From the NCBI GenBank assembly GCA_020402865.1, contig JADBYT010000012.1, positions 62,001 through 126,000 on the forward strand: a stretch of DNA of 64,000 bases. The letters are read 5' to 3'. Below the pieces are notes generated by a model. That model saw nothing but the letters and a program-made list of their open reading frames with translations. It was not told where the DNA came from and searched no databases. How positions within the stretch are numbered: the first letter of the stretch is position 1; the number at the start of each line of letters is the position of its first letter. The translations under genes and the position numbers were made by a program. Positions 6,655 to 22,095 of the stretch are shown one piece after another. This DNA comes from Bacteroidota bacterium (GTDB lineage Bacteria; Bacteroidota; Bacteroidia; Palsa-965).

Positions 6655-8797
6655 ACCGCGCCGGAATATGCAGCAGCGTAATTTTTTCATTACCGGAAAA
6701 GCGGTGTTGGGTTTCCTGCTCATGGCAGGCATATTCGGCTTTGGTATTTATCTTGTGTTCCGTTCGTTGCAACAGCTTTCGGGCGAAGTAGCCGTAATTA
6801 ACGAGCCCAACCGCAAACTGGCCGAGTGGAAAGCATTGCGGGCGAAAGTAAATGAAGCCGCCGACCTGGTGCGCCGTTATGCGCTGAGCGGCAATGAAGA
6901 AGAGCTTGACCAGTTTGAAGATCTGCGCATCGATTTGCCGCTGTATATCGATTCATTGCGGCAGCAACTTCCCGACTCGCTCCGGCACTATACCGACTCG
7001 CTCGAAACCTTGTCGGGCGAACGGCTCGATTTACTCTCACTGCTTTCGAGTGCACCCGAAGCCGAAGCCGAAGGCAGTGTGCTCGACGAAGCAGTGAATG
7101 AACTCAACCGCATACAACAAGACAGCCGCCTGCTGGCCGAAACTACTGTTACGCGTATCAATCTGAAACCATTGCCGGCAAACACGTTTAAGAAAGACAG
7201 TGTTGCCGCAGCGGCAAAGAAAAAACGCCGCAAAAACGAGTCGGTAGCTTTGCCCGATGATACAGCGACGATTGAAACGCCGGTTACGCAATCAATCACC
7301 AAAATCACCTACACTCCTCAGGCGCAGCGCGATGCCGAGATTTACAGCTCATTGAACCGGCTCCGCTGGCGTGAAAAATTTGCCGAAAAAATTCGTAACG
7401 AAGGCCGGCTTGAACTCCTGCTCAAAAATCAGGAAATTGAGCAGCGCATCACCGATTTGTCGGAAGCCTTTGAAGCGCAGGAACTCAAGCAAAGTGCCGC
7501 ACTCATCCAGTCGGCCACATTGTTTGCCGAGAAACGCGCCAGACGTATTGCCGAAGCGCTGGCCGTGGCCGGACTTATTCTCATTTTGTTTTTCACGCTG
7601 CTCATTCACCGCGACAGCCGCCGCTCAGTGCGTTTGCGCTTGCAAACCGAGCGTGCACGCGACAACGCCGAAGAGCTGGCAAAGGCACGCGAGCAATTTG
7701 TAGCCAACATGAGCCACGAAGTGCGCACACCGCTTAATGTAATCAGCGGATTCACCGGCGCACTCATGCGCACACCGCTCAACAGCGAACAACTCCGACA
7801 GGTGCAATCGGTTAACCGCGCTTCGCAATACCTGATCGCGCTTATTAATGATACGCTCGATTATTCGAAAATGAATGCGGGAAAATTCGAACTCGATCAT
7901 TTTCCGTTCAGCACTGCAGAGCTGTTCAGTGATATTGAATCGGCCTTTGAAGGAGAAGCCAAAAACAGAGGCATTGGTTTGCGCTTTGATATTGACAGCA
8001 AGGTTCCCGCCTACCTTACCGGCGACCCGATGCGATTGCGGCAGATTCTGTTTAATCTGGTAGCCAATGCCATTAAATTCACAGCCAAAGGCGAAGTGGC
8101 TGTTGCTGCTGAAATAACCAATGCCGGAGAACAATCGGTTGATTTCGTGATCAAAGTAAGTGATACCGGCATAGGAATTCCGGCCGATAAACTGAACAGC
8201 ATTTTTGAAGCCTTCAGTCAGGCCGACAACAGCATTACCCGCCGCTTCGGCGGTACCGGACTTGGCCTCACCATTTCGCGCCTGCTTACCGAACGCATGA
8301 ACGGCACACTTCAGGTAAGCAGCGAACCAGGACAGGGGTCTGTATTTACGGTGTCGCTGCCGGGCATGGTACTCGCTAAAGATCAGCTCCCAAAAGCCGA
8401 TACACCAAAAGCGTACAACACGCTCAAAGGATTGCAGGTGCTGGTGTGCGACGATGAAGAACTGAACCGGATTGTTGCACAGCAATTACTCAGCCATTAT
8501 GAAATTGAAGTAACGGAGGCCGGAAGCGGCAGCGAAGCAATAGCAGAACTTGAGCGGCAGCACGTACACATTGTGCTGATGGATGTGCAGATGCCCGGTC
8601 AGAGCGGAATTGACACGGTACAGCAAATCAGAAAAACAGCCGGTATCGAAGCGAGTATTGTTGTGGCGGTTACGGGCAACGCCTTACCGGAAGAAAAACA
8701 GCGTTGTATGGATGCCGGCATGAATGCCTATCTCGCAAAACCATATACCGAGGCACAGCTGCTTGATCTTCTCATTCAGCTCGACCCCAGAAATTGA
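6647..8797 (+). CDS. Hybrid sensor histidine kinase
   Basis: The start at 6647 overlaps the Hpt stop; the 716-residue product has a membrane segment at about 13-40, a helical periplasmic sensor region of about 260 residues with a lysine-rich patch (AAAKKKRRKN), a second membrane helix at about 302-322, and then the catalytic core. HisKA has NMSHEVRTPLNV with H357; HATPase_c shows NAIKFT, DTGIGIP and GGTGLGLTIS. A C-terminal receiver follows with CDDEE, D646 in LMDVQMPG and AYLAKPYT. The likely relay is H357 to D646 to the Hpt histidine, then to a separate regulator such as the receiver protein just downstream. The sensor ligand is unknown. Confidence 0.93.
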   Translation: MPEPRRNMQQRNFFITGKAVLGFLLMAGIFGFGIYLVFRSLQQLSGEVAVINEPNRKLAEWKALRAKVNEAADLVRRYALSGNEEELDQFEDLRIDLPLYIDSLRQQLPDSLRHYTDSLETLSGERLDLLSLLSSAPEAEAEGSVLDEAVNELNRIQQDSRLLAETTVTRINLKPLPANTFKKDSVAAAAKKKRRKNESVALPDDTATIETPVTQSITKITYTPQAQRDAEIYSSLNRLRWREKFAEKIRNEGRLELLLKNQEIEQRITDLSEAFEAQELKQSAALIQSATLFAEKRARRIAEALAVAGLILILFFTLLIHRDSRRSVRLRLQTERARDNAEELAKAREQFVANMSHEVRTPLNVISGFTGALMRTPLNSEQLRQVQSVNRASQYLIALINDTLDYSKMNAGKFELDHFPFSTAELFSDIESAFEGEAKNRGIGLRFDIDSKVPAYLTGDPMRLRQILFNLVANAIKFTAKGEVAVAAEITNAGEQSVDFVIKVSDTGIGIPADKLNSIFEAFSQADNSITRRFGGTGLGLTISRLLTERMNGTLQVSSEPGQGSVFTVSLPGMVLAKDQLPKADTPKAYNTLKGLQVLVCDDEELNRIVAQQLLSHYEIEVTEAGSGSEAIAELERQHVHIVLMDVQMPGQSGIDTVQQIRKTAGIEASIVVAVTGNALPEEKQRCMDAGMNAYLAKPYTEAQLLDLLIQLDPRN

Positions 8798-8890
8798 CCC
8801 TGAATACCGTTCATTTTTATCCTACTGCCGAAAATAACCGCACTTTGCTTTTCTTCATTCGTATTATTGATTGAAGAAAGGAGGGGGATT

Positions 8891-9262
8891 ATGCTAACTG
8901 TATTAATTATAGATGACGATCCACTTACACGACGTGCACTGTTTTTCGAAATCAACCGCGCCGGCCATCAGGCTGAATCAGCTGCCGATGCATATGACGG
9001 ATTAAAACTTGCCGAATACCGGAATTATGATCTGATTATCTGCGACATTATTCTCCCGCAAATTTCGGGTTTGATACTTGCCAGCCTGCTCAGACAATTC
9101 AGCAGCAGACAAATCCCGTTGTTGCTGATGTCGTCAACCAAAGAATTCAATTCATTTATTAAACAACATGATTTCGGAGCCATTGGCTTTTTGCATAAAC
9201 CTGTGCGGCGTCCGCTCCTGTATAGTTGGCTGAACCGGATTGAAGAAATGAAGGGCCTTTAA
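8891..9262 (+). CDS. Single-domain response regulator
   Basis: The start is fixed by a strong Shine-Dalgarno (GGAGGGGG) 5 nt before the ATG. The 123-residue protein is a lone receiver domain: DDD near residue 8, D52 in ICDIILPQ, a switch serine in LLMSSTKEF and lysine in FLHKPVRR. It has no output domain, so it acts by protein contact or as a phosphate sink. It lies 93 bp after the hybrid kinase and completes an Hpt, kinase and receiver set. Confidence 0.88.
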   Translation: MLTVLIIDDDPLTRRALFFEINRAGHQAESAADAYDGLKLAEYRNYDLIICDIILPQISGLILASLLRQFSSRQIPLLLMSSTKEFNSFIKQHDFGAIGFLHKPVRRPLLYSWLNRIEEMKGL

Positions 9263-9300
9263 TTGCAGGCTCCTTCATTCTTCAGTTTAACATGCTCGAA

Positions 9301-10125
9301 TTACCTGGGAAGCAATTCCACCGCACGTTTGAAAAGGGCGGTAAGTTTTAGTTCGGCTTTTCCGGCCACTTCAATTATTTCTGCAATATCTACCGGCTTC
9401 AGATTATCGGGATCGCACTCATCGGTGATTACGGAAACTGCCGCACAGGGCAAACTCATGTGATTGGCCACGATAACTTCGGGCACAGTACTCATGCCCA
9501 CGGCATCAGCACCGATGCGATGCAGAAAACGATATTCAGCCCGCGTTTCGAGATTAGGGCCGGGCACCGATACATATACGCCCTCGCGCAGTGTGAGTTG
9601 TTGCTCAATTGCAGCCTGTTTAAGCAACACATTCATTTCCTTCGAATACGGGCAGCTCATATCAGGAAAACGTGGCCCCCAGGCGTCAACATTGGCGCCG
9701 ATGAGCGGATTGCCCGGCTGCAGGTTAATGTGATCGTCGATGAGCATGAGATCGCCTTTTTTGAGTGCGGTGTTCATGCCTCCGGCCGCATTGGAAATAA
9801 AAAGCCATTTCACGCCAAGCAGTTTCATTACACGCACCGGAAGGGTAATTTGCTGCATGGTGTAGCCTTCGTAAAAATGAAAGCGTCCTTTAAACGCAAT
9901 TACTTTGCGGCCTGCAAGCGTGCCGTAAATGAGTTTACCGGCATGAAACTCAACCGTTGCTTCGGGAAAATGCGGAATGTCGCTGTAAAGCACTTCTGTT
10001 TCGGGCGTAATTTCCGTGGCTAAATTGCCCAGGCCCGTACCGAGAATAATTCCTGCCTCGGGATTTACGATTCCGCGCGAGCGCAGGTAATCGGCAGCGG
10101 CATTTACTTGTTGCTCGTAATTCAT
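9301..10125 (-). CDS. punA: Purine-nucleoside phosphorylase, last gene of arsenosugar operon
   Basis: Class I (trimeric) purine nucleoside phosphorylase of 274 residues. Family motifs are all present: GTGLG, FKGRFHFYEGYTM, SNAAGGMN, GPNLETRAEY and STVPEVIVANH. The base-binding asparagine of the human-type enzyme is replaced by aspartate (D235 in ITDECDP), while the glutamate of the LETRAE segment is kept. In the human enzyme the same change favours 6-aminopurine nucleosides. In the operon it would release adenine from an arseno-adenosine made by ArsS. The start at 10125 (MNYEQQ) lies 11 nt after the arsM stop; an upstream ATG at 10146 would overlap it. Confidence 0.9.
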   Translation of the reverse strand: MNYEQQVNAAADYLRSRGIVNPEAGIILGTGLGNLATEITPETEVLYSDIPHFPEATVEFHAGKLIYGTLAGRKVIAFKGRFHFYEGYTMQQITLPVRVMKLLGVKWLFISNAAGGMNTALKKGDLMLIDDHINLQPGNPLIGANVDAWGPRFPDMSCPYSKEMNVLLKQAAIEQQLTLREGVYVSVPGPNLETRAEYRFLHRIGADAVGMSTVPEVIVANHMSLPCAAVSVITDECDPDNLKPVDIAEIIEVAGKAELKLTALFKRAVELLPR

Positions 10126-10136
10126 GCGATGGAGTA

Positions 10137-11117
10137 TTAGCAGCATCCGCCGCCGTCGTAAAAATAGGTGGAGGGTGAAATGAAAATATCGTTGCGGCCA
10201 AGTGAGGCCAGCGCACCGGCAGTTTTATCGCACACGGCAAGCGGCTGGTTTTGAAGCAGCGTGTGGCCTTTTTTATCGTCGAAGAATTGTTCGCTGCCAA
10301 AATAGATTGCTGTTTTGCCGGTAAACACACAAGGGCCGTCGGCCGGCATCGGATCTTTAATGGCACATACTTCCACGCTTTCAATGTAAATGAGCTGATC
10401 GGTGTTGTAGTGGCCGGGAGCAAGAATGCGGTACGGACGTTTGGCGCGTATTTCAACAGTTCCGAAGCCGGTGTCGGTAATCATTTTTATGTATTCGCTG
10501 AGCGGAAGTGCGCCGCTGAGACAAAGCGCGCGGAGGCGCTCATCGTTTTTCAAGGCCTCGGGCATGGCCGTTTCACAGGTCGGATCAGACAACACAAGGC
10601 GGCCGTGCGGCTTGAGTACACGATACATTTCGCGCAGTGCTTTTTTCAAATCTTCGGTATCGAAAATATTGAACAAGCAGTTTTGCGCAGCCACATCAAT
10701 CGAATTATCTGCTACAGGTAACGCCAGTGCATCACCTTTGCGGATATCCACAAATTCATTTTTAAACCATGCATTGGTGCGCTCTGCTTCGCGCAGGTTT
10801 TCGCGGCAGGCTTCCATCATTTCATCCACCACATCCACACCAATTACTCCACCCGGCCGGCGACTGAAATACGAAAACTGAAACACTTCCATTCCGCCAC
10901 CCACACCTACATAAAGTATGGAAGGATTGTTTACCAGATCGCGGGGATTAACCGTGCTGCCGCAGCCATAATTCATTTCAAGCATTTTTGCTGGCATGTG
11001 CAGGTCGGGCAACTGCCACACGGGAGTGGTTGTGCAGCAAAGGCCTACATCGGGCTTCAATGCTGCATCACGATAAACATTCTTTGTGGTTTCGAGATAG
11101 GTTTTGGTTACTGTCAT
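10137..11117 (-). CDS. arsM: Arsenosugar-type arsenite methyltransferase ArsM
   Basis: SAM-dependent methyltransferase of 326 residues, of the branch found in arsenosugar operons. The SAM site is LYVGVGGGMEVFQF, followed by VGIDVVDEMMEACREN-like sequence and the motif AQNCLFNIF. Cysteines expected to hold As(III) are at C27/C28, C52 and in QNCLFN; the protein ends in GGGCC, an unusual thiol-rich tail. A C-terminal domain (about 230-326) follows the Rossmann fold. It should methylate arsenite to the dimethyl form used by ArsS. It sits between the TIGR04283 glycosyltransferase and the phosphorylase with gaps of 15 and 11 nt. Confidence 0.88.
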   Translation of the reverse strand: MTVTKTYLETTKNVYRDAALKPDVGLCCTTTPVWQLPDLHMPAKMLEMNYGCGSTVNPRDLVNNPSILYVGVGGGMEVFQFSYFSRRPGGVIGVDVVDEMMEACRENLREAERTNAWFKNEFVDIRKGDALALPVADNSIDVAAQNCLFNIFDTEDLKKALREMYRVLKPHGRLVLSDPTCETAMPEALKNDERLRALCLSGALPLSEYIKMITDTGFGTVEIRAKRPYRILAPGHYNTDQLIYIESVEVCAIKDPMPADGPCVFTGKTAIYFGSEQFFDDKKGHTLLQNQPLAVCDKTAGALASLGRNDIFISPSTYFYDGGGCC

Positions 11118-11132
11118 GTGATGGATATTGAA

Positions 11133-11822
11133 TTACCAGTTGAGTGATTTTTTATAGGTATCGCGGATAATTACCGGATCGACACCACGATTGAACTGAC
11201 GCATGGCGCGCAGGTTTGCAAGCTGCACACGAAGCCAGGTGTTTTTTTCGTATTTACGGGTTGATGTAATTGTGGCACAAGGAAGTACGGCAAACGAAAA
11301 TTTATTCCGGGCACGTTTGAGCAGGTCGTATTCTTCCATAATAATATACTTTTCATCAAATCCGCCAAGCTGTTCAAATGCATTACGGGCAAAGAAAATG
11401 GTTTGATCGCCGCCACGCACATAGAGGCTGTTGAAACGGGTAAACCAGGCATTTACATGCAGCAGCATACCTGCCTCTTCAAATTTCTGCCTGCAGGCTC
11501 CCAGCTGATGGCCTGCTGCCAATGCGTTTTCGATGGCGGTTAAAAACGATGCGGGAGGCAGCACATCGGCATGCACGAAGTAAAATACATCGCCTTTTGC
11601 GGCAGCCACTCCGGCATTGAACTGAACGGCGCGGCTGGCTTTGGGCGTTTGCACAAGCACTGCTCCCCTTTCGCGCGCTATCGCCACTGTGCGGTCGGTA
11701 CTGCCGCCATCAGCCACAATAATTTCGAGCAGGCGCTCATCGGCATGTGCGGCAAGATGCGTAAGCAGGCGGCCTATGAACTTTTCCTCGTTCAGCGTAG
11801 GTATGATTACACTCAGTTTCAT
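11133..11822 (-). CDS. TIGR04283-family arsenosugar biosynthesis glycosyltransferase
   Basis: GT2-fold (GT-A) glycosyltransferase of 229 residues: MKLSVIIPTLNEEKF opening, IVADGGSTDRTVAIA, and VHADVLPP, the metal-binding DxD-like site, followed by IMEEYDLLKRAR. The set matches the TIGR04283 branch, which is named for its place in arsenosugar clusters. It probably transfers or rearranges the arsenoribose unit onto an aglycone, though the exact step is not established. The start at 11822 overlaps the stop of the preceding gene as ATGA, indicating coupling. Confidence 0.87.
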   Translation of the reverse strand: MKLSVIIPTLNEEKFIGRLLTHLAAHADERLLEIIVADGGSTDRTVAIARERGAVLVQTPKASRAVQFNAGVAAAKGDVFYFVHADVLPPASFLTAIENALAAGHQLGACRQKFEEAGMLLHVNAWFTRFNSLYVRGGDQTIFFARNAFEQLGGFDEKYIIMEEYDLLKRARNKFSFAVLPCATITSTRKYEKNTWLRVQLANLRAMRQFNRGVDPVIIRDTYKKSLNW

Positions 11823-12463: not shown

Positions 12464-13516
12464 CTAAGCAACCGAACCTCCGCAGCTCGATCCTGCTCCG
12501 GCCGTACAGCCAAAGCAGTGCTGATTAACCACAATACTCCGGTTCTGCAATGCCTCCGTTTTCCACTGCGACACGTGCAACGATTCGGGTACAGCCACTT
12601 TTAAATCGAGCATCTGATTGAAATCGCAGTCGTAGAGAAAACCATCCCAGCTCACCGAAACAGTATTGCGGCACATTACGTTGGCGGCCGCAGCCGGATT
12701 GTAAGCGCCAATGAGTTTATCCATATATGCATCGTAGTTGCCGCTTTCGATGAGGTAATCGAGAAAACGGCTTACTGGCAAATTGGTAATGGCAAACAGA
12801 TTATTGAATTCAATTTCCCAGCCTTTGCGCAGTTTTTGCTTAAACTCATTTTCAAGCCCTGCCTGATCGGCCGGAAGGAAAGCGCCCGAAGGATTGTACA
12901 CCAGATTAAGCATAAGCCCTGTGCCGGGCATTCCGTAGCCAACAGCATTGAGCATTTTAAGCGCACGGATGGAGCGTTCAAACACGCCCTCTCCCCGCTG
13001 CGAATCAGTACGCACGGCTGAGAAATACGGAAGCGAGGAAACCACTTCCACATTATGCGCTTTGAAAAACTCAGGCAAATCGTTGTACTTTGGATTGGCC
13101 ACAATAATAGTGAGGTTGCAACGCACGATAATCTTTTTGCCAAGTGCAGCGAGTTCTTGTACAAACCAGCGGAAATCGGGATTCATCTCCGGAGCGCCGC
13201 CGGTAATGTCAACCGTATGCGCACCGCTCCGTTTCACTGCATTAATGCATTGCTGCATGGTTTCGCGGGTCATTATTTCCTTGCGGTCGGGCCCCGCATC
13301 CACGTGGCAATGTTTGCAAACCTGATTACACATCTTGCCCACGTTCACCTGAAAAATTTCGATCTGTGTGGGCGTAAGCGGAAACAAATTGCTTTCTCGC
13401 AGCTTGGTAGTAAAAGCATGCGGCTCGTTACCGAACGGTGTGCTTTCACTAAGTATCTGTAATTGCCGCTGCGTATCGGAAAGTTCGCTGTGGCGGGCAA
13501 GCAATGATTTTGTCAT
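12464..13516 (-). CDS. arsS: Arsenosugar biosynthesis radical SAM protein ArsS (Cys form)
   Basis: Radical SAM enzyme of 350 residues. The 4Fe-4S motif is CNQVCKHCH (C63, C67, C70), followed by DITGGAPEMNP (the GGE-like SAM strand). The C-terminal SPASM-like/DUF3641 part ends in CFGCTAGAGSSCGG. Many relatives are selenoproteins with UGA in that tail; here the codon is TGC, so this is the cysteine version. ArsS is thought to attach the 5'-deoxyadenosyl group of SAM to a dimethylated arsenic, giving the nucleoside precursor of arsenosugars. It is second in the operon, 21 nt after the AhpD-like gene. Confidence 0.9.
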   Translation of the reverse strand: MTKSLLARHSELSDTQRQLQILSESTPFGNEPHAFTTKLRESNLFPLTPTQIEIFQVNVGKMCNQVCKHCHVDAGPDRKEIMTRETMQQCINAVKRSGAHTVDITGGAPEMNPDFRWFVQELAALGKKIIVRCNLTIIVANPKYNDLPEFFKAHNVEVVSSLPYFSAVRTDSQRGEGVFERSIRALKMLNAVGYGMPGTGLMLNLVYNPSGAFLPADQAGLENEFKQKLRKGWEIEFNNLFAITNLPVSRFLDYLIESGNYDAYMDKLIGAYNPAAAANVMCRNTVSVSWDGFLYDCDFNQMLDLKVAVPESLHVSQWKTEALQNRSIVVNQHCFGCTAGAGSSCGGSVA

Positions 13517-13537
13517 AGGCTTTAACGGGAAATCCGT

Positions 13538-13870
13538 TTACATCGAAAGTTCTTTGTACTTGTTCATCATTTGCACACCATGCACCAGCGAAGCACCTCC
13601 GCGGATAGCAGCTGTAACATGCACGGCTTCCATCATCTGTGCCTCGTCGCATCCTTTTTCAAGTGCATCAGAAGTATAGGCATCAATACAGTACGGACAT
13701 TGTACGGCATGCGCCACAGCCAGTGCAATAAGCGATTTTTCGCGTGCTGTGAGCGCACCTTCCTTGAACACTTCGCCGTAATAATCGAAAAACTTCTTGG
13801 CAAGATTGGGCTCAAAATCGGCAATATTTCCAAATTTCTTAAGATCCTCAGGATTGTAGTAGGTTTTCAT
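13538..13870 (-). CDS. Arsenosugar-associated AhpD/carboxymuconolactone-decarboxylase-like protein
   Basis: A 110-residue all-helical protein of the AhpD/CMD family, with the redox pair CPYC (C58, C61) in ALAVAHAVQCPYCIDAYTS. The histidine that usually follows (CxxCxxxH) is tyrosine here. The form matches the peroxidase-like protein that opens arsenosugar clusters; it may act as a thiol reductant keeping arsenic trivalent, which is inference. It is the first gene of a six-gene minus-strand unit running to 9301. No ArsR-like operator is obvious upstream. Confidence 0.85.
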   Translation of the reverse strand: MKTYYNPEDLKKFGNIADFEPNLAKKFFDYYGEVFKEGALTAREKSLIALAVAHAVQCPYCIDAYTSDALEKGCDEAQMMEAVHVTAAIRGGASLVHGVQMMNKYKELSM

Positions 13871-13958
13871 AACGGTGGTGTTTTATGAAGGTAAGATACG
13901 TAATGCGAAGAAAAACGGATTGAACAAAAACCATATCCGATAATTTTTCGTTTCTCTA

Positions 13959-15110
13959 TTGATCAATACCTTTGACAAACTGCCATTAAATCAAACCCAT
14001 TTGCTCTGCAAATCAAGTATAAGTGCACTTTTTTTCTGTTTCATTGCGGCGTATTCATTTGCCGGAAGCAATGATTCTCTTATCGACGGAACAGAAAAAA
14101 GAAATCCGCGGAACCGGTTTTATGCCTTCCCTGTTTTGTATTATACACCCGAAACCCGTTTCAGCATTGGAGCAGCTGGAATTTATGCTTTCCGTTTCAG
14201 AAGCGACAGCAGTAATGCCCGTCCTTCGCGTATTAATTTCGGACTCGCGGTGACTCAAAACCGGCAGTTGCTGGTGTATCTGCCTTTTCAGTTATTTCCA
14301 CAAAACGGACGGTTTACCATTTATGGTGAAGCAGGTTGGTACCGTTACAATTATTACTTTTTTGGCGTGGGCAACACGCAGCCGCAGGATTACCGCGAAC
14401 GTTACGCGGTGGATTATCCCCGATTCAGAATAAATGCGCTGCGCAAACTCGGAAAAGGTTTCTATGCCGGGTTTCGTTACTGGTATGAAGACTGGAAACT
14501 GAGTGAGCTTGATCCCGCCGGACAACTCGCACAGGGTGCTGTACGGGGAAGCAATGGCGGAGCAGTAAGCGGGCCGGGATTTGTAGTGAACTACGACACG
14601 CGCGACAATATTTTTTATCCGCAGCGTGGCGTGTTGATTGAAAGTGCCATTCAGTTTTTTGACAAAAACACCGGAAGTGATTTCTCATTCACCCGCACGC
14701 TGCTTGATGCTGCGACTTACGTCAGACCAACTAAAACCGCTGTGGTGGCTGTAAATGCAATTGCCGATCTGAACACGGGTACGCCCCCGTTTTACCTCAT
14801 GGCACTGATGGGCGGCACCAAACGCATGCGTGGCTTTTACGAGGGGCGTTTCCGCGACAATAATCTTATACTTTTTCAAACCGAATGGCGGCAGCACATC
14901 TGGAAACGCTTTGGAGCAGTGGCTTTTGGAGGCACCGGAATTGTGGCCGATAAGATTAGCCACCTGCGCATTGCCGACACACGTTTTACTTATGGTCTCG
15001 GCCTGCGATTTACGCTCGACAAAAAAGAACACATCAACATCCGCCTCGATTACGGCCGGGGCACATACAACAGTGCTGGCTTCTATCTCACAATAGGCGA
15101 GGCTTTTTAG
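13959..15110 (+). CDS. Omp85/BamA-family outer-membrane barrel without POTRA domains
   Basis: A 383-residue protein with a signal peptide (SSISALFFCFIAAYSFAG) and a 16-strand-type surface-antigen barrel ending in ...YLTIGEAF, a terminal phenylalanine. Late strands carry the family phrases GGTKRMRGFYEGRFRDN (the VRGY/F-like loop-6 motif) and FRITYGLGLRF-like sequence. POTRA repeats are lacking, as in the short TamA/D15-like proteins of Bacteroidota. No ATG is in frame before the signal peptide; TTG at 13959 is the first usable start. It is divergent from the arsenosugar operon, with 88 bp between. Confidence 0.85.
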   Translation: MINTFDKLPLNQTHLLCKSSISALFFCFIAAYSFAGSNDSLIDGTEKRNPRNRFYAFPVLYYTPETRFSIGAAGIYAFRFRSDSSNARPSRINFGLAVTQNRQLLVYLPFQLFPQNGRFTIYGEAGWYRYNYYFFGVGNTQPQDYRERYAVDYPRFRINALRKLGKGFYAGFRYWYEDWKLSELDPAGQLAQGAVRGSNGGAVSGPGFVVNYDTRDNIFYPQRGVLIESAIQFFDKNTGSDFSFTRTLLDAATYVRPTKTAVVAVNAIADLNTGTPPFYLMALMGGTKRMRGFYEGRFRDNNLILFQTEWRQHIWKRFGAVAFGGTGIVADKISHLRIADTRFTYGLGLRFTLDKKEHINIRLDYGRGTYNSAGFYLTIGEAF

Positions 15111-15115
15111 CAAAA

Positions 15116-15135
15116 CAGGCACCTTTCGGTGCCTG
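15116..15135. terminator. Bidirectional terminator
   Basis: CAGGCACC pairs with GGTGCCTG between convergent genes; AAAA precedes it, so it gives a short T run on the minus strand. Confidence 0.65.
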
Positions 15136-15141
15136 CCTGAT

Positions 15142-15981
15142 TTATCGGATGTAAATTTTCTTTGTGGAAATCTGTCCGTTTGACTCAACCCTTACAAAAT
15201 AACAGCCTGTAGCCAGGTTGCCGAGTTCGATACGGTTTGAGGTATCGTTGAGTTCACGCACCAGCACTTCCTGACCGGTGGTGTTGTACACGCTTACACG
15301 TGCTGTTTCGGGTGTTTGCGGGAACGATACAAACAACACGCCATCGTATGAATGGATATTCGCTGCCGGCGATGCAGTTTCGTTCAGGCCCACCGTTAAT
15401 CCGGCACCAATGCCCAAACCGGCATTCTGGTTGTAGGCCAGATCCTTCACAATAATGGTATCCGCATTGGCACTTACACTGAGGCGAACCCAGCCATAAT
15501 AGACCAGTGCGTTATTCACAAACTTCACCCCCACATACTTATCCGAAGCGGCAAGCCACTCACCAAATCCGCCCAGCGATGTAGCCACAGCCCCAAGCAC
15601 GTGTGCACCATAATTGGCATACTGCGGATTCCAGGTTGAGCCCACATCAATCATATCGCCCATGCCAAGTGTATCGGCAAACGGATAATTCTGATACGTA
15701 AACCCGGCCGTACCGGCTGCCGGTGGTGCATATACATTAATAAGAGCAAGTTGTGCCGGAATCGCGTAGGCCGTAATGGTTGAATCGAGTGTTTGAAAAC
15801 TAAAATCAATGGTTCCATTCAAATCCATATCGAGACGATACTGCGTGGTATCGCTTACCACAAAATCGGGCGAAATGTCTCGGTAAACAATTTGTGCATC
15901 AAGCGAACCGGCAGTTGCTGTGAGTGCCCCGGCCAATGCAGAGTAGGCTTTAAGTTTGTCTTTACGTGTAGTTGTAGGCAT
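15142..15981 (-). CDS. T9SS cargo protein, paralog 1 of 4
   Basis: A 279-residue protein that shares its layout with the three genes upstream. N-terminal KDKLKAYSALAGALTATAGSLDAQIVYRD is a weakly hydrophobic signal-like segment ending in AQ. An Asp/Asn-rich loop follows (LDMDLNGTIDFSF), resembling a single calcium loop. The middle has YVGVKF and YYGWVRLS, and the C-terminus is a type A Por sorting domain (VSVYNTTGQEVL, LATGCYFVRVES, KKIYIR). It is the most diverged of the four. The role outside the cell is unknown. Confidence 0.82.
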   Translation of the reverse strand: MPTTTRKDKLKAYSALAGALTATAGSLDAQIVYRDISPDFVVSDTTQYRLDMDLNGTIDFSFQTLDSTITAYAIPAQLALINVYAPPAAGTAGFTYQNYPFADTLGMGDMIDVGSTWNPQYANYGAHVLGAVATSLGGFGEWLAASDKYVGVKFVNNALVYYGWVRLSVSANADTIIVKDLAYNQNAGLGIGAGLTVGLNETASPAANIHSYDGVLFVSFPQTPETARVSVYNTTGQEVLVRELNDTSNRIELGNLATGCYFVRVESNGQISTKKIYIR

Positions 15982-16145: not shown

Positions 16146-16994
16146 TTAGATATAGATCTTACGTGTAACCACTTCGCCGTTGGGCTGGATTACCTGCACA
16201 AGATATACCCCCGAAGCAAGATCACCAAGCGAAATACGCATGGATGCCTCGTTGATACTTTCGGTGTACACTACCTGACCGGTGGTGTTAAACACCTGCA
16301 ATGTTCCACCGAGTTGCATTTCCGGTGTAAGATTTACAAACAAGGTACGATCGTACACATGCACGGCAGGTGTTCCTGCGGGCTGTTCGGCCACACCCAC
16401 TGCGGTGGTTTGTCCGGCCACAATACCCTGCCCTGCAGTGGTGTTGTATGCGTACTCTTTCAGCGTAATGGTACCACCATCAGCACTTACCGAGAGGCGG
16501 GCCCAGCCATAGTGGGTTTGTGAACCTGCGGCAAAACGCACACCGATGTATTTATCGCTGATTCCCGGCCAGTTGCCATACATAGGTCCGGGCTGTGGCA
16601 GTACAACGGCAAGGTATTGATAGCCGTTGTTAACGCTGCCATCTTGCCAATCTGTTGCACCGGGGCGGATACTGTCGCCGGCATTGAGAGCAGAGGGGAA
16701 TGGATATGTATTTGAAAACAAATTACCTAATACGGCATTTACAACCGGAGGTTCAACGTCCAGAAGTGCATATCCTGATAGCGAGTTGGCCGAATCGAGG
16801 TAATTGAATGCATACAGGCTAAATTCAGCTGTATTATCATTATTTATGTCAAGCGCATAAGTTGCAGCTGAATCAATTACAATATCCGGCGATGGATCCG
16901 TATGTATGATTTGACCTTGAGCGGCTACTGCAGCGGTAAGTGAACCGGCTGTGAGCGAATAAGCTTTGAGTTTCTTTTGAAGTGTTTTGTCCAT
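16146..16994 (-). CDS. T9SS cargo protein, paralog 2 of 4
   Basis: A 282-residue member of the tandem family: LKKLKAYSLTAGSLTAA-like leader ending AQGQIIHTD, then PDIVIDSAATYALDINNDNTAEF with a calcium-loop-like aspartate/asparagine cluster, YIGVRFAAGSQTHYGWARLSVS in the core and a Por sorting domain (LQVFNTTGQVVY, LASGVYLVQVIQ, RKIYI). It is closest to paralog 3 in its core. Each gene of the set has its own terminator or gap, so they may be separately transcribed. Confidence 0.83.
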   Translation of the reverse strand: MDKTLQKKLKAYSLTAGSLTAAVAAQGQIIHTDPSPDIVIDSAATYALDINNDNTAEFSLYAFNYLDSANSLSGYALLDVEPPVVNAVLGNLFSNTYPFPSALNAGDSIRPGATDWQDGSVNNGYQYLAVVLPQPGPMYGNWPGISDKYIGVRFAAGSQTHYGWARLSVSADGGTITLKEYAYNTTAGQGIVAGQTTAVGVAEQPAGTPAVHVYDRTLFVNLTPEMQLGGTLQVFNTTGQVVYTESINEASMRISLGDLASGVYLVQVIQPNGEVVTRKIYI

Positions 16995-17230: not shown

Positions 17231-18076
17231 CTATAAATAGATTTTGCGTGTTACTGTTGTACCATCAGGCTGAATGATTTGCACCATATACACACCTGTT
17301 GCAAGATCGCCAAGCGAAATGCGCATTGCAGGATCTGTAATACTTTCGGCACGTACAATTTGCCCTGAAGCACTGAACACCTGAAGCATACCACCGGTTG
17401 GTGTTTCTGCCGGAAGATTCACAAACAAAGTGCGGTCATAAACGTGAACGTTCGGAACGCCTGCTGTTTGTTCAGCTACGCCAACAAGAGTGGTTTGCCC
17501 GGCTGTAATACCAGCTCCGGGAGTTGTATTGTAAGCGTATTCTTTTAATGTAATAGTACCCCCATCGGCGCTGACCGATATGCGTGCCCAGCCATAGTGG
17601 GTTTGTGAACCGGCAGCAAAACGCACACCGAGGTATTTATCACTGATTCCCGGCCAGTTGCCATACATAGGTCCGGGCTGTGGCAATACAACGGCAAGGT
17701 ACTGGAAACCACCGTTAACTGAAGCATCGATCCAATCGGTTGCACCTGGACGGATACTGTCGCCGGCATTGAGAGCAGTGGGGAATGGATAAACGCCCTG
17801 AAACAAATTCCCAAGCACAGCATTGGTTACAGGCTGATAAGCCTCCAGAATGGAATAGCCGTATGTTCCGGCAGAATCCGTGTTGGTTAAGGCATACATA
17901 GCAAACTCCGGCGTGGCATCGTTATTCACGTCGAGGGCATATACAGCCGCGGAGTCAATAACCATATCCGGCATTACATCGGTATGCACAATTTGCCCTT
18001 GTGCAGCGGCAGCGGCAGTAAGTGACCCGGCTGTGAGCGAATACGCTTTAAGTTTCTTTTGTAGTGAAATATCCAT
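17231..18076 (-). CDS. T9SS cargo protein, paralog 3 of 4
   Basis: A 281-residue family member with the leader QKKLKAYSLTAGSLTAAA, the PDMVIDSAAVYALDVNNDATPEF loop region, the YLGVRFAAGSQTHYGWAR core shared with paralog 2 and a Por sorting domain (LQVFSASGQIV, LATGVYMVQIIQ, RKIYL) almost identical to paralog 4. The mixed similarity, core to one neighbour and tail to the other, suggests gene conversion within the array. Function unknown. Confidence 0.83.
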   Translation of the reverse strand: MDISLQKKLKAYSLTAGSLTAAAAAQGQIVHTDVMPDMVIDSAAVYALDVNNDATPEFAMYALTNTDSAGTYGYSILEAYQPVTNAVLGNLFQGVYPFPTALNAGDSIRPGATDWIDASVNGGFQYLAVVLPQPGPMYGNWPGISDKYLGVRFAAGSQTHYGWARISVSADGGTITLKEYAYNTTPGAGITAGQTTLVGVAEQTAGVPNVHVYDRTLFVNLPAETPTGGMLQVFSASGQIVRAESITDPAMRISLGDLATGVYMVQIIQPDGTTVTRKIYL

Positions 18077-18150: not shown

Positions 18151-18996
18151 CTATAAATAAACTTTACGTGAAACCACACTTCCGTCAGGCTGGATGATTT
18201 GCACCATGTACATACCTGTTGCAAGATCACCAAGTGCAATGCGCATTGAAGGATCGGTAATGCTTTCGGTATGCACAATTTGCCCGGAAGCGCTGAACAC
18301 TTGAAGCATACCACCGGTTGTTGTTTCTGCCGGAAGATTTACAAACAGGGTTCGGTCGTAAATATGTATGCTGGGAATACCGGCAGACTGTTCGGCTACA
18401 CCAACTACCGTTGTTTGCCCGGCAGTTAAACCAACACCCGGCGAAGTGCGGTAAGCAAAATCTTTTACCACAAGCTGATTGGCTGTAGCTCCAATCGTAA
18501 GCCGAATCCATCCATAATGCGGCTGGTTGTTAATGTTGAAACGAATCCCAACATATTTATCGGTTGAGCCTAACCAGTTGCCAAATGATACCGACTGGTT
18601 AAGATAAGTATTATATACCGCAAGATACTGAGCGCCTTGGAAGTATGATGAATCCCGCCAATCAGTTGCAGCAGGGCTAATACTGTCGCCGTTGTTTAAT
18701 GGTGTGGGGAACGCAATATAACTCTGAAACAGATTTCCAAGTGTAGCCGTATTATCAAAAACGACTTGATAGATCATAGATACACTGCTTACAGAATCGA
18801 CCAACGAATAAAAGAAAAACTGTAACTCGGGCTGGCCATTATTATCCATATCGAGATTGTAGTTTGAAGGCCCGTTCAGGCTAACATCCGGATTAATATC
18901 GGTGTAAACAATCTGACCTTGCAATGCCGAAACAGCAGTTAGTGAGCCTGCAGCAAGTGAATATGCTTTTAGTTTTTTGAGTATGGATGAATTCAT
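18151..18996 (-). CDS. T9SS cargo protein, paralog 4 of 4
   Basis: A 281-residue family member and the first of the array in the direction of transcription. The leader is KKLKAYSLAAGSLTAVSALQGQIVYTD; the acidic loop reads LDMDNNGQPELQF; the core has YVGIRFNINNQPHYGWIRL; the Por sorting domain matches paralog 3 nearly word for word (LQVFSASGQIVHTESI, KVYL). Its middle third differs clearly from the others, so the binding surface may have diverged while the secretion tail stayed constant. Confidence 0.83.
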   Translation of the reverse strand: MNSSILKKLKAYSLAAGSLTAVSALQGQIVYTDINPDVSLNGPSNYNLDMDNNGQPELQFFFYSLVDSVSSVSMIYQVVFDNTATLGNLFQSYIAFPTPLNNGDSISPAATDWRDSSYFQGAQYLAVYNTYLNQSVSFGNWLGSTDKYVGIRFNINNQPHYGWIRLTIGATANQLVVKDFAYRTSPGVGLTAGQTTVVGVAEQSAGIPSIHIYDRTLFVNLPAETTTGGMLQVFSASGQIVHTESITDPSMRIALGDLATGMYMVQIIQPDGSVVSRKVYL

Positions 18997-19071: not shown

Positions 19072-21627
19072 TTATTTCCCTGCTTTATTTCGGTAAAGAT
19101 CAGCATTTACAGCGGCTGCCATAGCTTCTGTATCAAGCGGCTGACCAATAAATGAAGCAATGCGGTAAGCAGCATCCATCGGATCTTCGACAATATGACG
19201 GTAATGCAGCTCAAGGGTTGCCACATTGGGCTGTGCTTTCATCCACGATTGTGCTTTTTCGGCTTGCTTTGACACCCCATCAGCCAATCCGGCCGGAAAG
19301 TTTTTGCCTTCGCCGCCGCGGCCCAGCATTTTAAGTTGCGACTGAAGTATTTCGCCCAGATCGCGGTGCATGTAGATAATTTTGTAGCTGAATCCCTGTG
19401 GCAAAAACTGCAGCAGGGGCGCAACAACTTTCAGCACTTTTCCATCGGCATCTTTGAGCCAGGTATTATCGAGGTGCAACCGTTTTACACGATCATCTTC
19501 GAGATAGCCCTGCGGATTATGCTCATCGCTCAACCGCTTATCATCGGTAACCGTTTCAAAACCGCCTGCACGGAGCATCTGCATCAGCATCGATGTACCC
19601 GAACGGGGCAAACCGGAAACAATGTAAATCGTACGGCTGATGTGATCGCGGATAAAGTTGCGGTGATATTCGGCTTTGTCGGGATTGCTGAGGTGGTTTT
19701 CGTAAAGCTGCACTAACCACTGATGTGCCCTGCTGTTTCCGGGCTGAAGGTGTACCGTAAGGCTGAATGCTTCGACGGCGCGTTCGTAAATACCGGCCTT
19801 CATAAGTGCTTCACCTAAGTTATAGTGTGCAGCCGGGAAATGGTGCAACAGCCCTACTGCATTAAGCGCCTCGTCAATAGCCTGCTCAATTTTATCACGC
19901 CTGAGCAGCGCTACAGCCAGTCCGTGGTGAGCGGCTGCATTGTCGGGATCGAGAGCAAGTGCGCGGATAAAAGCTCTTTCTGCATCGCGCCAATTACGTA
20001 CGGCAAGGTAAGACTGCCCGATGAGTTGCTGCAAACCGGGGGTCTGTGCCTGACTGAGTTCAGCCCGTTGCAATACGGTGAGGGCTTTGTGCGGCCGACC
20101 TTCGGCAAACAGCAGGTTACCTTCCAGAAAATCAAGCGTTGCCAGAGCATGTTCGTGATTCTTAATTCCTTTGCGCAACTCATCAATAATTCGTCGTGCA
20201 TCATTGCTGCGTGACAGCTTCAGATAGCAGTTCACGAGGCGCAGCGCATAGCGCGGAATATAAGGCGCAACACTGTAAAGTTCTTCAAGAATCGGTAGCG
20301 CCAGTTGCGGACGCTGCGTGGTGAGGTAAACCCGGGCTAAGTAGAACTGGCTTTCGAGACGAACAGCTTCGTTTGTTTTAGCAGCATCTTCGCCGGGCGC
20401 TTCAATGTAGCCCAACTCGGCAAGTTGTTTCAGTGCTTCCTGCGCCGCCCAGGGATCTTCGCGGAATTCGCCCGGATGCTGGCCGGTGTTGCCTTCAACA
20501 GTTTCCCAGGTAGGAATACGGGCCGGAATCTCGGGCGATTCGAATGCCTGTGTAAGCACACGGCCGGCCATATCATCGCCGGCAGGCAAACCAAACAGGG
20601 TAAGCACGGTGGGTGCAATATCAAGCAGAGTTGCTCCGTAAATGCGGTCGTCTTTGCGTATGCCCGGGCCGCTGATGCAAAGCACGCCGTAGGGCGCGTG
20701 CTCGTGTGCCGGAGCAGCCGGATCTTTGGGCAACTCACGCGGACGAAGATGATCAGAATGAAAGCCGTGATCGGAAAGCAGTACAAACACAGTGTCTTCA
20801 CCGGCAAGCTCCATTAACCGATCCAGCATCATATCATGGAAACGGTAAATGCTGTTCATCACACCTTTATACAGCTCAAATTCTGTGCTGTCGGTTTCGG
20901 GAAGCTGCGGCGGATGATATTTCATGAAAAGATGACTGAACTGGTCAATCTCATTCATATACAGCGCCAGAAATTCCCATTCCTGATTTTCGAGAATCCA
21001 GGTTGCCGCTGCGTGATACGATGAACTTTGTGCAAGCAGCACAGCAATGGAAGCCAGCTTCGTGTCTTTTTCCTGATCCACCTTTTGAAGCTCGGGCACA
21101 AAAGGCAGAAGATGCGCCCAGCTTAATTCAGAAGGATGCACACGGCATTGTGCAATTGCTTCAGCTACTTCGGGCGGATGTACGGTGTTTTCGGTCAGCG
21201 GCCAGTCGGCAAGCGACTTGCCATTTGGGCGGGCAAAGTTGTTGGAAACCGTAACTCCGTCGAGCGGTTCGGCCGGGTGACTGGGCCACCAGCCAACGGT
21301 GTGTGATTTGATGCCGTTTTGCTGGAGAATGTTCCAGAGTGCTTTTACTTTGCGGGAAGTTACCGTTGACGGCCTGATGTTTCCGGTATTCGGATCCGGC
21401 TCTACAAAGCCCAGAATTCCGTGCTTATCGGCCGTCATGCCGGTTGCAATGGAGGTCCAGAGCATAGGCGAAAGCGGTGGATCAAGCGTGGCAATATTAC
21501 CAATGACCCCGTTTTCAATCAGTTTCTGGAGCGCGGGGAGTTGTCCTGCATCCAGCAGCGGATTAATTATTTTCCAATCGGCAGCATCCCAGCCGAGCAG
21601 AATTACACGTTTAGCCTTTCTGCTCAT
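19072..21627 (-). CDS. Alkaline-phosphatase-fold / TPR / sulfotransferase fusion protein
   Basis: An 851-residue three-part protein. Residues 1 to about 380 are a type I phosphodiesterase/nucleotide-pyrophosphatase-type alkaline phosphatase domain: GWDAADW, PPLSPMLWTSIATG with the likely nucleophile, NEIDQFSH, LLSDHGFHSDH and HEHAPYG hold the two-metal residues. About 410-650 is a stretch of TPR helices (ALALDPDNAAAHHGLAVALL, AHYNLGEALMKAG). About 665-851 is a sulfotransferase with the PAPS 5'-phosphosulfate loop VSGLPRSGTSML and a 3'-phosphate-like MHRDLGEILQSQ. No signal peptide or membrane helix is seen, so it is probably cytoplasmic. Start 21627 is chosen because MSRKAKRVILLGWD begins the domain; it overlaps the upstream small gene. 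Substrate unknown. Confidence 0.85.
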   Translation of the reverse strand: MSRKAKRVILLGWDAADWKIINPLLDAGQLPALQKLIENGVIGNIATLDPPLSPMLWTSIATGMTADKHGILGFVEPDPNTGNIRPSTVTSRKVKALWNILQQNGIKSHTVGWWPSHPAEPLDGVTVSNNFARPNGKSLADWPLTENTVHPPEVAEAIAQCRVHPSELSWAHLLPFVPELQKVDQEKDTKLASIAVLLAQSSSYHAAATWILENQEWEFLALYMNEIDQFSHLFMKYHPPQLPETDSTEFELYKGVMNSIYRFHDMMLDRLMELAGEDTVFVLLSDHGFHSDHLRPRELPKDPAAPAHEHAPYGVLCISGPGIRKDDRIYGATLLDIAPTVLTLFGLPAGDDMAGRVLTQAFESPEIPARIPTWETVEGNTGQHPGEFREDPWAAQEALKQLAELGYIEAPGEDAAKTNEAVRLESQFYLARVYLTTQRPQLALPILEELYSVAPYIPRYALRLVNCYLKLSRSNDARRIIDELRKGIKNHEHALATLDFLEGNLLFAEGRPHKALTVLQRAELSQAQTPGLQQLIGQSYLAVRNWRDAERAFIRALALDPDNAAAHHGLAVALLRRDKIEQAIDEALNAVGLLHHFPAAHYNLGEALMKAGIYERAVEAFSLTVHLQPGNSRAHQWLVQLYENHLSNPDKAEYHRNFIRDHISRTIYIVSGLPRSGTSMLMQMLRAGGFETVTDDKRLSDEHNPQGYLEDDRVKRLHLDNTWLKDADGKVLKVVAPLLQFLPQGFSYKIIYMHRDLGEILQSQLKMLGRGGEGKNFPAGLADGVSKQAEKAQSWMKAQPNVATLELHYRHIVEDPMDAAYRIASFIGQPLDTEAMAAAVNADLYRNKAGK

Positions 21628-21796
21628 TGCTCTGTTTATTTTGGGACTGAATTGAAGCCGCACGGGCAGCTCTCCACAGCAGTAAACCGCGCCAACCCAA
21701 GGCAAGCAAACCTAGTGAACCTTCGGCCGGAACCGGATACGACTGCTGCTTTTCCTGCTTAGAAGCGTGCTGATGACCATTAGATATTAAATTCAT
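21611..21796 (-). CDS. Small protein translationally coupled to the phosphatase-sulfotransferase
   Basis: A 61-residue protein with a polar start (NGHQHASKQEKQQ), a YPVPAEGSLGLLALGWRG segment that could be one short amphipathic or membrane-contacting helix, and a basic, glutamine-rich tail. The frame overlaps the start of the fusion gene by 17 nt, which argues that it is translated and coupled. A -7-like box, CAATTTTG, lies 4 nt before the ATG. I do not recognise a family. The PAEGSLGLLALG phrase looks conserved in character and may be a docking or membrane-tethering peptide for the fusion enzyme. Confidence 0.6.
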   Translation of the reverse strand: MNLISNGHQHASKQEKQQSYPVPAEGSLGLLALGWRGLLLWRAARAASIQSQNKQSNEQKG

Positions 21797-21900: not shown

Positions 21901-22095
21901 ATGAAAACAGGAGTAATCAAATTTTTCAACGCCACCAAAGGCTACGGTTTTATCAAGGACGACGAAACCGGCAAAGAAATTTTCGTACACGTAACCGGCC
22001 TTATCGACCAGCCTATTAATCAGGATGATAAAGTATCATTCCAGATTTCTTCAGGCAGAAAAGGCGACAACGCTATTAACGTAAAGAAAATCTGA
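21901..22095 (+). CDS. Cold-shock domain protein
   Basis: A 64-residue single cold-shock domain, an RNA- and single-strand-DNA-binding OB fold. RNP1 is KGYGFIKD and RNP2 is IFVHVTGL. Length is normal for the CspA family. It stands alone between a candidate promoter and a strong terminator, divergent from the 61-residue gene. Likely an RNA chaperone; cold induction cannot be judged from sequence. Confidence 0.95.
   Translation: MKTGVIKFFNATKGYGFIKDDETGKEIFVHVTGLIDQPINQDDKVSFQISSGRKGDNAINVKKI

Follow-up and report, generated by a model that had tools for sequence, protein, structure and literature searches.

What does a bacterium do with a single protein chain that joins an alkaline-phosphatase-superfamily (AP) domain, a tetratricopeptide repeat (TPR) superhelix and a sulfotransferase (ST) domain of the type that uses 3'-phosphoadenosine-5'-phosphosulfate (PAPS)? 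The gene for such an enzyme lies in a 64,000-nucleotide stretch of the genome of a Bacteroidota bacterium (lineage Palsa-965; contig JADBYT010000012.1, positions 62,001 to 126,000), the whole of which is called the window here. Four genes directly downstream of it encode exported proteins with a common N-terminal tag. We propose, with about even confidence, that the protein is an enzyme of the cytoplasm that serves a particular set of exported surface proteins and modifies them before export. To judge from sequence, the modification is probably sulfation. We consider this the best reading because the chain combines a superhelix that likely binds proteins with PAPS and metal sites that are intact, and because tagged precursors are coded next to it.

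The initial annotation, made from the DNA letters alone, had proposed one chain with AP, TPR and ST domains, and this is borne out. The enzyme matches Phosphodiest (PF01663, E 6.8e-27), TPR families and Sulfotransfer_3 (PF13469, E 8e-11, 43 bits against a cut-off of 27), with the ST loop GLPRSGTSML, and its AlphaFold2 model, built from a 56-row alignment, is a confident single chain (pLDDT 90.2, pTM 0.81). The mechanical open reading frame (ORF) extends as far as 21705, a TTG; in the first alignment, the closest of the full-length relatives begins at the ATG. The plus-strand frame opposite the ORF has many stops. The chain opens with a beta strand and no signal peptide was seen by eye, in agreement with the cytoplasmic location suggested earlier. 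A scan of genome contigs gave at least 506 relatives in at least 587 stretches, and the best 80 loci, at 40-64% identity, were kept; nearly all of them keep the layout. With relatives at 80 loci and invariant AP residues, the layout is more than chance or an annotation artefact, and that explanation was rejected. It should be mentioned that the locus counts given below are not independent, because certain loci, to judge from names and sequences, are near-identical or close relatives of one another (for example L036/L037, L045/L046/L047, L102/L103 and L106/L111).

In a phylum sample of 296 genomes (the bacterium's own and 295 others), a full-length relative was found only in the own genome and in one other, G064. 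The best 80 loci are mostly from Bacteroidota, with others titled Nitrospirae, Planctomycetota, Chlorobiota, Thiotrichaceae, Methylococcales, Hydrogenophilales, delta proteobacteria and Sulfotelmatobacter. The enzyme gene is therefore sparse but widespread. Among 53 records from a plasmid collection no place covered 80% of the query, the ten listed being AP-domain matches.

The exported proteins are the most recurrent neighbour family after the enzyme itself. Clustering of the neighbours in 81 loci (the window and 80 others), with genes called by script as the longest non-overlapping ORFs, placed 87 such proteins in 57 of the 81 loci; the other clusters are small, and the next largest reach six loci. 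Where the enzyme could be placed, the nearest exported protein is on the same strand in 53/56 loci and within 200 bp in 46/56. The sorting domain TIGR04183 of the type IX secretion system (T9SS) is above its cut-off of 23 in all four proteins of the window (P0002, 31.4 bits; P0003, 32; P0004, 37.5; P0005, 44.1), and PEP-CTERM tails are above cut-off on the tagged proteins of two proteobacterial loci, L091 and L112. No Pfam or NCBIfam family beyond the sorting tail was above cut-off in the four window proteins; the copy at L064 has a cadherin domain. The model of exported protein 1 consists of a beta body and a T9SS tail fold. The tail, which reaches Z 10.9 to the C-terminal domain of RemA, accounts for most matches in the fold search of the whole protein.

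In most of these partners the signal peptide opens with a shared tag, L-x-x-Y-[ST]-x-x-A. A regular expression for it finds 61/82 exported partners, compared to 23/358 other signal-peptide-like proteins in the same loci, a background that includes some unclustered tagged proteins (L091, L095, L104). When the neighbour proteins were aligned, 84 of 87 could be placed and three could not; the tag tyrosine is kept in 73 of the 84. The 11 copies without it comprise five with phenylalanine, two truncated ORFs and four that are aligned outside the tag or tagless, two of which (L087, L108) have a tag-like stretch further upstream. In most proteins the tag tyrosine is close to the hydrophobic core of the Sec signal; at L087, L092, L108, L091 and L112 a tag-like stretch stands, by eye, well before this core. 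A tyrosine is also often found at the mature N-terminus of the exported proteins. The tag is not confined to the enzyme locus. From 122 profile matches, 60 stretches were fetched to sample homologs away from the enzyme, and 57 remained after dropping three (L183, L192, L204) that are in enzyme loci; the tag tyrosine is present in 46/57 of these homologs. One genome (G306, that of locus L053) has 23 tagged-protein profile matches and one enzyme, and the tag tyrosine is found in 19/19 of its away copies, two of them near-identical.

The occurrence of the tagged protein was then compared with that of the enzyme, the p-values being uncorrected for ancestry. With the tagged-protein profile, A2, the own genome yields four copies, each of them next to the enzyme, and the 295 other genomes of the phylum sample yield three weak matches, all in enzyme-negative genomes. 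One of the three (L115) carries no tag in its signal peptide, which is of the ordinary kind, one (L114) is lipoprotein-like, and the frame of the third (L116, from G168) runs off its locus, so that its start is outside the sequence. Among 12 genomes of the own order, the profile and the enzyme mark the same four (Fisher p 0.002), and a further genome, G353, contains a weak, untagged homolog. Because this test is small and its four positives had themselves contributed rows to the profile, a second comparison was made with a held-out set of 15 enzyme-positive genomes without a profile row and without a clustered partner in the locus; 8/15 are matched at E 0.001 against 3/295 others (p 5e-10), with the reservation that the profile rows include close relatives of some of the 15 (e.g. 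L047). Overall, the profile matches 42/50 enzyme-positive genomes at E 0.01 and 41/50 at E 0.001.

The catalytic residues bear on what the enzyme may do. The AP domain was examined in 80 aligned rows, the query and 79 loci; L074, whose ORF missed the start pattern, is outside this count and has the loop GLPRAGTSM. The AP domain is the most strictly conserved part of the enzyme, with D14, S53, D228, H232, D286, H287 and H310 invariant (80/80). The two-metal ligands together with a Ser/Thr nucleophile place it in the alkaline phosphatase superfamily, in the NPP/PafA branch, as does the fold search (PafA, Z 28.5; NPP/ENPP, Z 26-27). S53 aligns with the threonine of phosphonoacetate hydrolase PhnA that is alanine in entry 3t02. 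The nucleophile stretch is S53-P-M-L-W, in which S53, P54 and W57 are each found in 80/80 rows. Formylglycine (type I) sulfatases have (C/S)xPxR at the nucleophile, and identity with them was rejected on this ground. Lacking the formylglycine motif, and having the PafA and NPP phosphatases and phosphodiesterases as its closest structural matches, the AP domain need not undo sulfation, and the "opposite activities" that the initial annotation saw in the chain appear doubtful.

In the ST domain, the counts of which are based on 77 or 78 aligned rows, R675 is kept in 74/77, E710 in 74/77 and S763 in 74/78. According to PMC6637879, the essentials of a sulfotransferase are an Arg in the 5' motif, a His/Glu base and a Ser in the 3' motif; R675, E710 and S763 match these three, and E710 is thus the presumptive catalytic base. 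The intact PAPS residues point to PAPS-dependent sulfate transfer. An adenosine-5'-phosphosulfate (APS) kinase is present in the own genome. At one of the 81 loci, L048, an APS-kinase-like gene (10559-11152) starts at the enzyme end, which suggests a PAPS-supply operon.

Both sets of catalytic residues are therefore complete, in support of the initial annotation, and the loss of these residues across homologs that it named as a possible objection was looked for and not encountered; the idea of a degenerate module was rejected. The in-chain ST is degenerate in three Flavobacteriales-like loci (L097, L102, L103) and absent from the chain in three others (L056, L077, L105). A separate ST gene is found directly after the enzyme in L056 and L077, directly before it in L097, and further along the locus in L102 and L103 (the positions noted in L103 are 7908-10529 and 13363-15810). 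The loop, the Glu and the 3' Ser are intact in each of these five genes. In L105 the sequence stops about 800 bases past the enzyme. An intact ST is thus present in the chain or the same locus for 79/80 aligned enzymes, the remaining one being L105 with its short locus, and we conclude that the AP and ST activities are kept together, either within the chain or through a second, intact ST gene nearby.

This conservation bears on three alternatives. In one, the enzyme is a targeting or chaperone factor whose TPR holds tagged precursors for Sec and T9SS, the AP and ST domains being mere binding folds. The overlap of the tag with the signal peptide and the retention of a degenerate ST in the chain of the three Flavobacteriales-like loci agree with such a factor; it is quite improbable in view of the seven AP residues at 80/80, the ST residues at 74 of 77-78, and the separate ST gene, complete in loop, Glu and 3' Ser, at each degenerate-ST locus. 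A writer and eraser in one chain, with the ST sulfating the tag or mature tyrosine and the AP removing sulfate or phosphate so as to gate export, would account for the joint maintenance of the two activities in 79/80 aligned enzymes, for the position of the TPR between AP and ST in the sequence, and for the nearness of the tag tyrosine to the Sec core. We consider it improbable, as the nucleophile site has no formylglycine sulfatase motif and the fold is closest to those of phosphatases and phosphodiesterases. The third is the suggestion of the initial annotation that the AP domain removes the by-product 3'-phosphoadenosine-5'-phosphate (PAP) beside the ST, or that AP and ST switch one cytoplasmic lipid or glycan precursor. 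The union of the two domains in one chain fits it, whereas the ST is a separate though adjacent protein in L056 and L077. The own genome has CysQ (250.9 bits against a curated cut-off of 228.8), so that PAP removal by the AP domain is unlikely to be needed, and its necessity for PAP disposal was rejected. Altogether this third alternative is very improbable.

The enzyme has a second recurrent partner. A small protein, mostly of about 40-100 residues, with the core [VI]P-x-x-GSLGLLALG-x-x-GL-x-x-WR is found in 45/78 testable loci (two more are too short to test), where its end overlaps the enzyme start or lies within about 100 bases of it. In two loci it is fused in frame to the enzyme N-terminus (L043:7821-10526 and L052:7866-10544). 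In the 296-genome sample its profile is strong in G000 and G064, both enzyme carriers, and in G243; six further matches are weak. Five copies were compared with CTERM tails, the best matches being 22.8 bits to PFE_CTERM (cut-off 24) for the L036 copy and 16.3 and 15.8 to PEP-CTERM (cut-off 20.7); the window copy, P0007, has Xrt_dep_XDP1 as its sole match (12.9 bits against a cut-off of 125). As all five are below every cut-off, an ordinary PEP-CTERM protein was rejected; no N-terminal signal peptide was seen by eye. Given its position and fusions, the small protein is probably a partner subunit or membrane tether of the enzyme. In two other genomes (G077, G143), small proteins (L224, L225) that we presumptively label PID-CTERM end in QAPIDGGLGLLAAAGG-x-YAW, which is core-like, and have a signal-peptide-like start.

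Table 1. Positions in the window of the enzyme, its domains and its partners
Feature	Coordinates	Strand	Basis or remark
AP-TPR-sulfotransferase enzyme, 851 aa	19072..21627 (ATG at 21627)	minus	ORF, Pfam, alignment, AlphaFold2
AP domain, NPP/PafA-like, ~residues 1-385	20473..21627	minus	Pfam, residues, fold
TPR superhelix, ~residues 415-662	19642..20385	minus	Pfam, model, fold search
PAPS-type ST domain, ~residues 664-851; R675 (loop), E710, R755, S763	19075..19638	minus	Pfam, alignment
Small 61-aa protein with VPAEGSLGLLALGWRGLLLWRAAR, 17-nt overlap with enzyme start	21611..21796	minus	recurrent partner
Tagged exported protein 1 (T9SS type A tail)	18151..18996	minus	neighbour cluster, sorting domain, fold
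Tag LKAYSLAAG of exported protein 1	18946..18972	minus	N-terminal
Tagged exported protein 2	17231..18076	minus	neighbour cluster, profile, sorting domain
Tag LKAYSLTAG of exported protein 2	18026..18052	minus	N-terminal
Tagged exported protein 3	16146..16994	minus	neighbour cluster, profile, sorting domain
Tag LKAYSLTAG of exported protein 3	16944..16970	minus	N-terminal
Tagged exported protein 4	15142..15981	minus	neighbour cluster, profile, sorting domain
Tag LKAYSALAG of exported protein 4	15928..15954	minus	N-terminal

Some further neighbours were noted. In the proteobacterial bins L091 (7163-7780) and L112 (3549-4055), a protein of 168-205 residues lies between the tagged protein and the enzyme; the L091 copy had no Pfam or NCBIfam match. 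In the window, a cold-shock-protein-like ORF was recognized by eye on the plus strand at 21901-22095, divergent from the enzyme operon. Also by eye, a sugar-transferase-like gene is near the enzyme in 4/81 loci (L033, L067, L076, L110) and an ABC ATPase in 5/81 (L056, L061, L075, L083, L107), which may indicate a link to envelope glycans or lipids.

Several observations weigh against a pre-export modification of tagged precursors. With respect to co-occurrence, the enzyme-positive G064 of the phylum sample, whose neighbour protein is divergent, is not matched by A2, and 9/50 enzyme-positive genomes are unmatched at E 0.001 (G315, G317, G323, G325, G333, G338, G342, G344, G345); L091, L098, L105 and L112, which are among the unmatched, have next to the enzyme, by eye, divergent proteins that look tagged. 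In the small own-order test, all four positives of which gave profile rows, five of the eight negatives are only 59-84% complete, and with only the three negatives that are at least 98% complete the chance, calculated by hand, becomes 1 in 35. With respect to the tag, its tyrosine would normally depart with the signal peptide, and the mature tyrosine is replaced by histidine in two of the four window proteins. The tag tyrosine is lacking in 11/57 homologs away from the enzyme, including ones with ordinary signal peptides (e.g. L179, L205). Phenylalanine replaces it in 5/6 neighbour proteins of L097, L102 and L103, a single clade with a separate intact ST. The coincidence of this Tyr to Phe change with a degenerate in-chain ST is suggestive, though it concerns one clade that has a separate ST. 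The small protein is missing, by the core pattern, from 33/78 loci, and a solitary copy is found in the enzyme-negative G243 (L223; G243:C17, 1435-1668).

The last of these points concerns the ST domain. Its profile is nearest to the cytosolic sulfotransferases (SULTs), which act on small molecules (best 2zpt, E 9.2e-07), and closer to them than to the protein-tyrosine sulfotransferases (TPSTs), whose matches are weak (E 0.002-0.007) and cover the P-loop only. The product of the enzyme could accordingly be a small molecule, lipid or glycan, sulfated or processed at a phosphate, that the exported proteins use, bind or export; the tag would then be a type of signal peptide read by another factor. 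The AP domain is NPP/PafA-like, a fold that acts on nucleotides and lipids, and the few sugar-transferase-like and ABC ATPase genes would suit such a product. These genes are far rarer than the tagged proteins (57/81), however, and a small-molecule product leaves unexplained why the tag tyrosine is present in 46/57 distant copies and absent in a homolog from an enzyme-negative genome. We regard this alternative as possible, if on the unlikely side. The same neighbour counts, set against the tagged proteins and the small protein (45/78), give little support to the lipid or glycan precursor that had initially been proposed as substrate.

Returning to the modification of exported precursors in the cytoplasm, we infer the following course of events. 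Before export, the TPR superhelix would bind the precursor by its tag, L-x-x-Y-[ST]-x-x-A. The ST domain would then move sulfate from PAPS onto a hydroxyl of the precursor, most simply that of a tyrosine, either of the tag or of the mature N-terminus. An obligatory second step, on a phosphoester, would fall to the AP domain, acting either on this precursor or on an intermediate that is phosphorylated, with the small GSLGLLALG protein acting as partner subunit or membrane tether. The precursor would subsequently leave by Sec and be sorted by T9SS in Bacteroidota, or by the PEP-CTERM route as may be the case in the two proteobacterial loci tested. A bolder version, in which the enzyme reads an LxxY tag and performs sulfate and phosphate reactions on one precursor, possibly as a reversible tyrosine mark that gates export, with the small protein as a CTERM-mimicking adaptor and the whole system spread across phyla and sorting routes, is rather unlikely.

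The proposed system was compared to known ones. A TPR superhelix next to a transferase domain is also found in OGT and SPINDLY, which choose protein substrates through their TPRs; in the Foldseek search of the TPR, their superhelices and consensus TPR are among the top matches. Here, in contrast, a sulfotransferase replaces the glycosyltransferase and an AP domain is added. The AP domain resembles NPP/ENPP, PafA and PhnA in its fold (Z 26-28.5 for the PafA and NPP rows), in the position of S53 at the PhnA threonine and in its full metal set, and differs from them in the lack of a signal peptide in the query, in the Ser nucleophile followed by PMLW, and in the fusion to TPR and ST. The KxYKxGKxW motif of signal peptides is read by accessory Sec; there too a small protein set is singled out for dedicated cytoplasmic machinery by a motif in its signal region. 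The motif, the Gram-negative hosts and the enzyme are different here, and the likeness is one of principle, with no homology claimed. The small-protein core approaches PEP-CTERM/PFE-CTERM tails in the L036 copy, yet all five copies scanned stay below every cut-off, and no signal peptide is seen by eye. In RaxX-RaxST of Xanthomonas, an exported peptide is tyrosine-sulfated (PMC6637879) and the sulfotransferase and exporter genes are in one cluster. The present loci likewise have a PAPS-type sulfotransferase gene with the Arg, His/Glu and Ser motif residues beside an exported substrate-like protein, a likeness of motif residues and gene context. The differences are that the ST is fused to TPR and AP, and that the partners have Sec-type signals with T9SS or PEP-CTERM tails and no type I exporter. 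By analogy, the enzyme would work like OGT in its choice of substrate and like RaxST in sulfation, without membership in either family.

To our knowledge, bacterial protein sulfation is known almost only from RaxX, and we know of no N-terminal-tag-directed modification of T9SS or PEP-CTERM cargo. A literature search, weak on subscription papers, turned up no account of this fusion, of the tag or of the small protein, and the main text of a review of extracellular bacterial protein modifications (PMC10450907) contains no word starting with sulf or sulph. If the proposal is right, the enzyme would be part of a widespread tag-guided modification system whose substrates are often coded next door. 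That would make it directly testable in named and apparently cultured hosts such as Fluviicola chungangensis MAH-3 (L085) and Portibacter marinus 10MBP4-2-1 (L098). It would also provide a functional handle on a branch of the AP superfamily and on two protein families that Pfam and NCBIfam leave unnamed beyond the sorting tails.

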